Program-made: the position numbers and the translations under genes
Notes under the pieces: generated by a model
The model's database searches: none
Seen by the model: only the letters and a program-made list of their open reading frames with translations
What the model was told of the DNA's origin: nothing
Source: Lawsonibacter sp.
GTDB taxonomy: Bacteria > Bacillota > Clostridia > Oscillospirales > Oscillospiraceae
Assembly (NCBI GenBank): GCA_022795855.1
Contig: JAAWHL010000012.1
Location: 1 to 43,274 of the forward strand
Length of the DNA stretch: 43,274 nt
Direction of reading: 5' to 3'
Part shown: positions 29,733-41,603 of the stretch, one piece after another
Layout of the letters: each line of letters starts with the position of its first letter
How positions within the stretch are numbered: position 1 is the first letter of the stretch

Positions 29733-30455
29733 ATGAGTTTTGATCCCTATGAGCTTGACCGCAGCTACACCCCCGCCGGACAGGTGGAGACCATCGGCCA
29801 GTACACAGCCAAAACCTTCCTGTGGATGGTTCTGGGCCTGCTGGTGACCTTCGGAATTGCCGTTGTATGCTGGGCCACCAACGCCACGCTGTACGCCCTG
29901 GTCTATATTCCCTACTGCCACCTGATTGTTCTGATTGCCACCTTGGTTCTGTCCGTCACCATGTCGGCCCGCATTGAGAAAATGGCGGTAGCCACGGCGC
30001 GGATTATGTTCCTCACCTTTTCCGCCCTGTTTGGCTTTACGATGTCAATCTACCTGTATATTTTCGAGTTTGGCAGCCTGATTTTTGTCTTCCTGGCTAC
30101 TGCCGTCTATTTCGGCGCTCTGGCCGCCTACGGCTACCTGACCAAGGCTGACCTGAGCAATCTGCGTCCCATTTTGTTCTCCGGCCTGCTCTTCCTGATC
30201 CTCTTTGGGGTTATCAGCATGTTTATCCCCGGCCTTCAGATGCTGGACCGGATTGCCTGCATCATCGGTATCGCCATTTTCCTGGGCTATACCGCCTATG
30301 ACACCCAGAGAATCAAGGCTTACTACAGCTATTACGCCGGTTACCCCGACATGCTGGAGAAGGCCTCGGTTTTCTCCGCGCTGCAGCTGTATCTGGACTT
30401 CATCAACCTGTTCCTGTATCTGCTGCGTTTCCTGGGCAAGGCGAGGAGAAACTGA
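29733..30455 (+). CDS. Bax inhibitor-1/YccA family membrane protein
   Basis: Multi-TM; FLGYTAYDTQRIKAYYSYYAG...DFINLFLYLLRFLGKARRN. Confidence 0.9.
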   Translation: MSFDPYELDRSYTPAGQVETIGQYTAKTFLWMVLGLLVTFGIAVVCWATNATLYALVYIPYCHLIVLIATLVLSVTMSARIEKMAVATARIMFLTFSALFGFTMSIYLYIFEFGSLIFVFLATAVYFGALAAYGYLTKADLSNLRPILFSGLLFLILFGVISMFIPGLQMLDRIACIIGIAIFLGYTAYDTQRIKAYYSYYAGYPDMLEKASVFSALQLYLDFINLFLYLLRFLGKARRN

Positions 30456-30481: not shown

Positions 30482-30514
30482 AAAAATCGCTCCGCCGCCG
30501 GCGGAGCGATTTTT
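30482..30514. terminator. Strong intrinsic terminator after the BI-1 gene
   Basis: AAAAATCGCTCCGCC-GCC-GGCGGAGCGATTTTT. Confidence 0.92.
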
Positions 30515-30516
30515 TA

Positions 30517-30673
30517 GAGCCTGTTTAAGTTCTCAAAGTATACCGGATGGCAGGGGATTTTCCGCAGGACAGGGCAGATCTTCGCAGGAATCCTTGTGGA
30601 TTCCAAGAAAATTTCACGCGGAATGGCGGCAAAAGGACTGCCAGCCGGTGTGCGAGCGATGTTAAACAGGCTT
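30517..30673. mobile_element. MITE-like foldback element, copy 1 (157 bp), TTA direct repeats at 30514-30516 and 30674-30676
   Basis: Ends GAGCCTGTTTAA / TTAAACAGGCTT (11 of 12 complementary); the two halves are imperfect inverted repeats meeting at GAATCC-TTGT-GGATTC; homologous to reverse complement of 41444-41603. Confidence 0.8.
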
Positions 30674-31654
30674 TTACATGACTGGAATCGTAACGTCGCA
30701 AATGGTGACAGAGACCACCTCATCCGGAGAGATCAGCTGCTGCGCGGAGCTGTCCCCCATGAAATAACCCTGCCAGGAGAACGATACCTTGCTTCCGGAT
30801 CCGTGGAAGTGGAGGCTGCTGTTTCCAAAAGAAACCCGGGAGCCGTCGGTAAGGGTGGCATAGGCGGAATATTGGCGGTCATCCGGCCCCTCCCCGCAGC
30901 CCGGGGAGGTGGTCCCTGTGAGATGAAACCCCAGATAGGAGAGAGAAAGGGCGCTTATGGTGTACGAATGCCCCTGCTGATCCGAAAAGACCGACCCATT
31001 TGCGCGGAGCGCCCGGGAGCTGTCCGGATAGCGGCAGGTGAAGGAGAGTTCCCAGGGGCCCTCCGCCAGAGGGGTGTACTCATATTTCCCCTCTCCCACC
31101 TCTCTGTACTGGACCAGCTCAGAGAAGGAGAGCTTCAGGGTGTGGGGAAGGGTCGGCCCCTGGGAACACTCCTGATAGTACCGGGTCTGGTTGTCAGTGG
31201 GGTCGTCGTCCGCCGGCCAGTAGTATCCGCTGCCGCTGCCCCGGAGGTTGTCCCGGATTCCTTCAAAGAAGCACAGCTCGGGGAGGGACTGTCCGTCCTC
31301 CCGGGTGATGGTGTAGGCGATGACAAAATTGTGCCGGTCCCCCAGAATGGCCTCGGCGGTCAGGGTGTAGCCGTCCGCCGAGACGGAGGCCCCTACCGGG
31401 CGGCCGATATCCCCCAGCAGCTGGGTGCGGGTGCTGCCAAAGGCGGGGGCCAGGAGATTGGTGACTGCGGCGCTGTTCACCTCGGCGCTGACACCGGTGG
31501 TCAGAAGGGCGGCGGCGGCCGCAGCGGCCAGCGCCGGACGGAAAGTGCGCCGCCGGGGCTTGGGGAGCTCGCTGAGGGAGGCAAGAGCCCTGTCAACGGC
31601 CCGCCGCGGGGCTTTTCCCGCAAAGGCGGCGCGGTAGCGTTCCTGTGTCGTCAT
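30674..31654 (-). CDS. DUF4179-like anti-sigma / membrane-anchored protein
   Basis: MTTQERYRAAFAGKAPRRAVDRALASL...FRPALAAAAAAALLTTGVSA (one TM); directly downstream of an ECF sigma gene. Confidence 0.7.
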   Translation of the reverse strand: MTTQERYRAAFAGKAPRRAVDRALASLSELPKPRRRTFRPALAAAAAAALLTTGVSAEVNSAAVTNLLAPAFGSTRTQLLGDIGRPVGASVSADGYTLTAEAILGDRHNFVIAYTITREDGQSLPELCFFEGIRDNLRGSGSGYYWPADDDPTDNQTRYYQECSQGPTLPHTLKLSFSELVQYREVGEGKYEYTPLAEGPWELSFTCRYPDSSRALRANGSVFSDQQGHSYTISALSLSYLGFHLTGTTSPGCGEGPDDRQYSAYATLTDGSRVSFGNSSLHFHGSGSKVSFSWQGYFMGDSSAQQLISPDEVVSVTICDVTIPVM

Positions 31655-31656
31655 GT

Positions 31657-32127
31657 TTATTCCTCCGCTAATAAATCTTTCAGCCTGATCCGCGCCCGGC
31701 GCAGCCAGGTGCGGACGGTGGGTTCTTTGGCGCCCAGGAGAGCGGCTGTCTCGGCGGTGGAGTACCCCTCGTAGTAGTACAAATCTACAGCCCGCCGCCA
31801 CTTCCGGGGCAGAGCGGCCACGGCAGCCCGCAGAGCGATGTGCTCCGGCGCTTGGGAAACACAGCAGTCCTCCGCTTCCTCCAGCGGCAGGGCGGCGCGG
31901 CGCAGAAGGGTGCGGCGGTGGTTCTTCCCCTTGTTCAGAGTTACCCGGATCAGCCAGCGCTTTTCGTGCTCTCTGCTCTCAAAGGAGAGGGGAGAGAGAA
32001 ACAGCGCCAGCAGAACCTCCTGCAAAATATCCTCCGCGTCCGGGGGAGAGCCGGTGTCGTTCAAGGCGATGCGGTAGATCATATCGGCATACTGCGCCGC
32101 TTTTTCTTCCAGCTCCCAGGTCTCCAT
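31657..32127 (-). CDS. RNA polymerase sigma-70 family (ECF) factor
   Basis: YRIALNDTGSPPDAEDILQEVLLALF...KRWLIRVTLNKGKNHRR...DLYYYEGYSTAETAALLGAKEPTVRTWLRRARIRLKDLL. Confidence 0.93.
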   Translation of the reverse strand: METWELEEKAAQYADMIYRIALNDTGSPPDAEDILQEVLLALFLSPLSFESREHEKRWLIRVTLNKGKNHRRTLLRRAALPLEEAEDCCVSQAPEHIALRAAVAALPRKWRRAVDLYYYEGYSTAETAALLGAKEPTVRTWLRRARIRLKDLLAEE

Positions 32128-41443: not shown

Positions 41444-41603
41444 GAGCGCCGGTTTAACATCTCTCATCCCACCGGCTGGCGGGCGTTTTGCCGCCATACG
41501 GTGTTAAATTTCCTTGGGATCCGCCAAGGGTTCCAAGAAAATCTGCCCTGCCCGGCGGAAAATTCCCTGCCGCTCGGCATACTCCGGGATATTAGACAGG
41601 CTC
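41444..41603. mobile_element. MITE-like foldback element, copy 2 (160 bp), opposite orientation to 30517-30673
   Basis: Reverse complement aligns end to end with 30517-30673; shared blocks ATTTTCCGC, CAGGGCAGAT, ATGGCGGCAAAA, GCCAGCCGGTG, GATGTTAAAC; TTA follows the right end at 41604-41606. Confidence 0.8.

Follow-up and report, generated by a model that had tools for sequence, protein, structure and literature searches.

The 157-bp element at positions 30517–30673 (forward strand) of the window, the whole 43,274-nucleotide stretch of Lawsonibacter sp. DNA analysed here, is almost certainly a non-autonomous transposon of the IS5 family (a MITE) whose TNA target duplication restored the stop codon at which it inserted, and the landing of its relatives on stop codons follows mostly from this TNA target together with selection. 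The analysis confirms an IS5-type MITE family that has an unusual association with stop codons and is new to the open-access literature searched. No paper in that literature contains the exact letters GAGCCTGTTTAA of the terminal repeat, and none combines MITE, Oscillospiraceae and insertion sequence, a scope that does not establish priority.

The element ends in GAGCCTGTTTAA and TTAAACAGGCTT on the forward strand and carries 12-bp terminal inverted repeats with one mismatch, the left repeat (30517–30528, forward strand) reading GAGCCTGTTTAA and the right repeat (30662–30673, minus strand) reading AAGCCTGTTTAA. Its flanks form a perfect 3-bp duplication, TTA/TTA, in which the left copy (30514–30516) is also the end of a terminator T-tract and the right copy (30674–30676, minus strand) is the TAA stop codon of a gene for a DUF4179 protein. 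A length of 157 bp leaves no room for a transposase gene, and the most common length in the family is 160 bp. The element is a foldback over its whole length. Specifically, when folded as single-stranded DNA it reaches −32.7 kcal/mol, compared with −18.9 kcal/mol (s.d. 2.8) for shuffled sequences (z = −4.9), and none of 200 shuffles folds as well. An earlier note on this DNA had described a MITE-like element with these coordinates, ends and flanking TTAs, capable of forming a single long hairpin and placed between the DUF4179 stop codon and the T-tract of the terminator that follows the BI-1 gene. Re-inspection and folding bear out this description, and the MITE reading gains support from the copy number, the TNA duplications and the existence of complete congeneric insertion sequences of the IS5 family that share its ends.

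The element separates the stop codon of the DUF4179 gene (PF13786, 35.2 bits in Pfam; minus strand, 30674–31654; 326 amino acids) from a bidirectional intrinsic terminator (30487–30515). This terminator sits between the DUF4179 gene and the convergent BI-1 gene (PF01027, Bax1-I; forward strand, 29733–30455), and a gene for an ECF-type sigma-70 factor (minus strand, 31657–32127) is located directly upstream of the DUF4179 gene. When the flanks are joined without the element, the coding sequence reads ..VTIPVM, then TAA, then AAAATCGCTCCGCCGGCGGCGGAGCGATTTTT. An element-free orthologue in another genome (G086), which is 45% identical to the window protein and has a different downstream neighbour, shows a TAA followed by 10 nucleotides and a GC-rich hairpin, GGCGCTCCGCCGCGGCGGAGCGCC, that resembles the terminator of the window. 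The orthologue ends in ...LCDVTIPVQ* and the window protein in ...TICDVTIPVM*, at the same position. Thus, the earlier suggestion that the insertion could have altered the C-terminus of the DUF4179 protein is not upheld and, as judged from the aligned protein ends, the C-terminus was left unchanged. Because it is situated between the DUF4179 stop codon and the terminator, the element is presumably transcribed.

Many genomic copies are present beyond the one near 41.5 kb to which the earlier note had referred. With two family copies as queries, 44 and 57 match rows were obtained in the genome that contains the window (2.5 Mb in 127 contigs), and the terminal 12-mer occurs there 99 times at no more than one mismatch, against 4 occurrences of a reversed control pattern. 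At least 35 copies have both ends, and most of these are 154–162 bp long. Flanking trinucleotides match in 20 of the 35 (7.9 when the right flanks are shuffled) and are mostly TNA, within a wider target consensus that resembles TCTNAGA. The second copy in the window (41446–41603, minus strand, 158 bp) is degraded, being 78% identical over the match, and its flanks, TGA and TTA, do not agree. Family matches were found in 17 of the 60 genomes compared (this one included), all from the same genus. A pattern scan of named genomes showed that the 160-bp elements also occur in Oscillibacter, Lawsonibacter, Ruminococcus and other metagenome-assembled genomes (MAGs) of gut Clostridia, in which contigs often break inside the element. 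Plasmid and phage collections yielded no match.

Complete insertion sequences with these ends exist within the genus. In a congeneric genome, a profile search identified two IS5-family members with ends GAGCCTGTTTAAAATCTT, one of 867 bp (L374, 1490–2356) and one of 868 bp (L386, 1490–2357), both with a transposase read in two overlapping frames; the copy in L386 is flanked by TTA/TTA. The same ends and the same 3-bp TNA duplication therefore delimit both the complete congeneric elements and the short ones, which identifies the latter as IS5-type MITEs. The two share the terminal repeat (GAGCCTGTTTA...), but the MITE lacks a transposase gene, has only about 12–17 bp in common with the insertion sequence at each end and is occupied internally by the long foldback. 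Another genome that carries MITE copies (G025) has one end of such an insertion sequence next to the transposase C-terminus (L385). In Spirochaetia MS495-2, an IS5 transposase gene is closed by the same end and finishes in ..LLLRRY*, with its stop codon inside the repeat; in a pattern scan, transposase genes that reach into the repeat with their final codons and stop codon were recovered from both Spirochaetia MS495-2 and Defluviitaleaceae. Complete relatives of about 848 bp, represented by L327 (848 bp), are flanked by TAA duplications and encode DUF4096 (PF13340) and DDE_Tnp_1 (PF01609) domains across two frames; L327 matches NCBIfam transpos_IS5_3 (NF033580) above the cut-off. The nearest known systems are TNA-duplicating insertion sequences of the IS5 family, a type represented by the IS1031/IS427 groups.

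In the genome that contains the window, a draft of 127 contigs broken up by repeats, neither a search with a 97-amino-acid fragment nor a profile search returned an insertion sequence with MITE ends, and present mobility in this genome is unproven for that reason. This genome may have lost the insertion sequence, or the sequence may sit in an assembly gap. None of the PF01609 matches in congeneric genomes has MITE ends.

Several further observations concern repeats of this kind. In Oscillibacter ABMPRH_168_1 (G089) a very large number of contigs terminate within the MITE, as do those of Spirochaetia MS495-2 (G087) within the insertion sequence. The repeats are therefore likely to have broken the assemblies, and the real copy numbers are probably higher than those counted. 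Short forms of 79–95 bp (L090 915–995, L093 929–1023, L100 1089–1170 and L101 12095–12173) retain little beyond the two outer arms, and three of the four have matching TNA flanks. Within the window, positions 1911–2600 hold a decayed IS5-type transposase gene with a DUF4096 match and a PF01609 match at 2305–2469; its left end, TTTAGAAGCTGTACCAATGG, belongs to another type of end (GAAGCTGTACCA), which differs from GAGCCTGTTTAA. Four repeats (L079 4553, L117 363, L082 2010 and L095 1073) look like chimeras of two MITE families, with one end of the GAGCCTGTTTAA type and another part like the GAAGCTGTACCA type (GATTGGTACAGC or similar). A repeat array beside a transposase gene (L031, G000:C13, 41–605), which translates as SPPSQGAWIE / FNPRPLRGGR, looks like a CRISPR-type direct-repeat array.

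The arrangement at the DUF4179 gene is recurrent. In 13 of the 35 two-ended copies of the same genome, the target duplication is exactly the stop codon of the flanking gene, whereas stop codons are expected to provide about 9–10% of the combined stop and intergenic (non-coding) TNA sites (p about 1 × 10^−5). Of 78 ends from other genomes, 9 coincide exactly with a stop codon and 3 are displaced by one base, where the duplication and the first G of the element together make TAG. Genes with a copy at the stop codon include those for UvrB and RuvB, recognized by sequence reading, and those for aspartate decarboxylase, MntP, haemolysin-III and response regulators, recognized by Pfam. The proteins tested end naturally and have complete C-termini. 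Gene disruption was considered as the origin of these boundary cases and rejected: it would give roughly equal counts at offsets 0 and −12, but the latter offset is absent, which indicates that the boundaries are real gene ends. TAA and TGA are TNA sites on whichever strand they lie, and a TNA duplication therefore restores the stop codon.

We lean towards a purely passive explanation for this pattern, in which any TNA is hit, insertions in coding sequences or promoters disappear, and the neutral TNA sites that survive are enriched in stop codons. Of the stop codons called in this genome, about 84% have the form TNA, and 24–29% of the TNA sites within 100 nucleotides past genes are stop codons. 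Against a null limited to sites 0–100 nucleotides past the stop, 13 of 30 copies in this genome (p = 0.016–0.06) and, with 17% expected, 9 of 22 in other genomes (p = 0.008) still fall on stop codons, a residual excess of 1.5- to 2.4-fold that passive landing does not predict. A locus-matched test gave 10 observed cases against 4.2 expected in this genome (p = 0.001) but 7 against 5.1 in other genomes (p = 0.19, not significant), and the latter result agrees with passive landing. All of these tests, and that of orientation below, used our own simple codon-usage gene caller with several nulls tried, and genome-wide expectations were taken from about 160 kb of this genome. Most stop-codon landing thus follows from the TNA target and selection, and a smaller excess remains that may reflect target choice or selection.

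Passive landing also fits poorly with an orientation bias, since either orientation restores the stop codon: right ends abut a stop codon in 26 of 108 cases and left ends in 13 of 138 (Fisher p = 0.0025). This bias emerged during exploration rather than from a preset test, and a small held-out set lacks it (0 of 8 versus 2 of 15). Of the copies at stop codons, 19 lie antisense and 4 sense relative to the gene; for ends 1–150 nucleotides past a gene, the two orientations number 18 and 16. An asymmetric target duplication was examined as the source of the bias, but the duplications of non-stop copies are nearly symmetric (21 TYA and 16 TRA), which is insufficient. The tendency of the right end to face the gene may reflect target choice or selection. 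One could go further and suppose that the IS5-type transposase, or selection on the MITEs, picks gene ends with polarity and so uses stop codons as safe harbours, the stop being rebuilt by the TNA duplication, the right end facing the gene and a covarying foldback being delivered into the 3′ UTR; we regard both this polarity and this use of the 3′ UTR as tentative proposals that are rather doubtful.

The foldback itself has been maintained. An alignment of 31 members from many genomes (A1), in which the forward strand of the window element is the family orientation, contains 51 predicted pairs over the whole element, and compensatory changes are found at 32 of them. Alignment cells at these positions are paired in 95.2% of cases, compared with 81.6% in shuffles and 33–49% when the alignment is slid, and reverse-complementing a copy creates no such compensatory changes at Watson–Crick pairs. 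Because these changes run along the whole element, they indicate that the foldback, and not only the insertion-sequence ends, was kept between subfamilies. The covariation could stem from selection on DNA, selection on RNA or correction of quasipalindromes.

This covariation, together with the stronger folding of the forward over the reverse strand in the alignment, is what would be expected if the element were a structured RNA in the first place, such as a 3′-UTR stabilizer or an RNase III target whose hairpin is selected and whose mobility is a means of spread. We consider this origin unlikely. Departures from pairing in the copies of this genome are about equally G-U (54) and A-C (68), as for decaying DNA copies, which argues against ongoing RNA-strand selection; copies elsewhere show 38 G-U and 28 A-C departures, which is not a significant difference, and an excess of G-U over A-C in the mixed alignment vanished within genomes, so that selection on the RNA strand was rejected as its cause. 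Moreover, most copies at stop codons run antisense to the gene, the element lacks a U-tract and has only a chance-level match in Rfam (18.6 bits against a cut-off of 40), and quasipalindrome correction at the DNA level could also yield the paired changes. The role as a 3′-end RNA structure raised in the earlier note is therefore possible from the location between stop codon and terminator, but the copies of this genome give no sign of RNA-strand-specific selection. A non-mobile repetitive palindrome of the REP or ERIC type, flanked by TTA by chance, would likewise be palindromic, intergenic and multi-copy, but it is scarcely credible given the exact ends in common with complete IS5 elements and the 20 matching duplications where shuffling gives 7.9.

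MITEs made from the ends of insertion sequences are well known in prokaryotes (PMC10969869; PMC6382973; PMC5896051), and a review of them does not mention stop codons (PMC10969869). Like the family described here, MITEAba12 of Acinetobacter is a short, fixed-length, IS-derived element (111–114 bp) that has terminal inverted repeats as well as target duplications at about 40% of its copies, and it is mobilized by a resident insertion sequence; in contrast, its duplications are 9 bp without a consensus, gene disruptions are reported and, in the portions of that report consulted, no stop-codon preference is mentioned (PMC6382973). QMITE2 of Coxiella also forms stable stems and in one case lies at the 3′ end of a gene, but its in-frame insertion lengthens the protein (PMC5896051), whereas in the DUF4179 gene the stop codon is rebuilt by the target duplication. 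The BOX, RUP and SPRITE repeats of Streptococcus pneumoniae resemble the family in being small, clustered, mobile repeats that are partly terminator-like (PMC10969869); going by their description, they are set apart from it by name and host, and the present family does not bring along a terminator with a U-tract.

Returning to the MITE reading, we propose that an IS5-type DDE transposase acting in trans recognized the terminal GAGCCTGTTTAA repeats and that the element inserted into a TNA target in a TCTNAGA-like context, duplicating 3 bp. The target would have been the TAA stop codon of the DUF4179 gene, overlapping the T-tract of the terminator that this gene has in common with the convergent BI-1 gene. 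The duplication would have rebuilt the stop codon, leaving the protein the same and the element as a roughly 160-nucleotide folded 3′ UTR ahead of the terminator, in an insertion that was presumably neutral. The loss by selection of insertions in coding or regulatory DNA, combined with the TNA target, would then account for most of the recurrent landing on stop codons.

Two features take this family beyond a routine MITE: its landing on stop codons and the covariation of the whole foldback between subfamilies. Under a target rule that matches stop codons, a high-copy transposon could multiply in a compact genome while sparing the genes, and numerous 3′ UTRs in gut Clostridia would gain folded sequence from the family.
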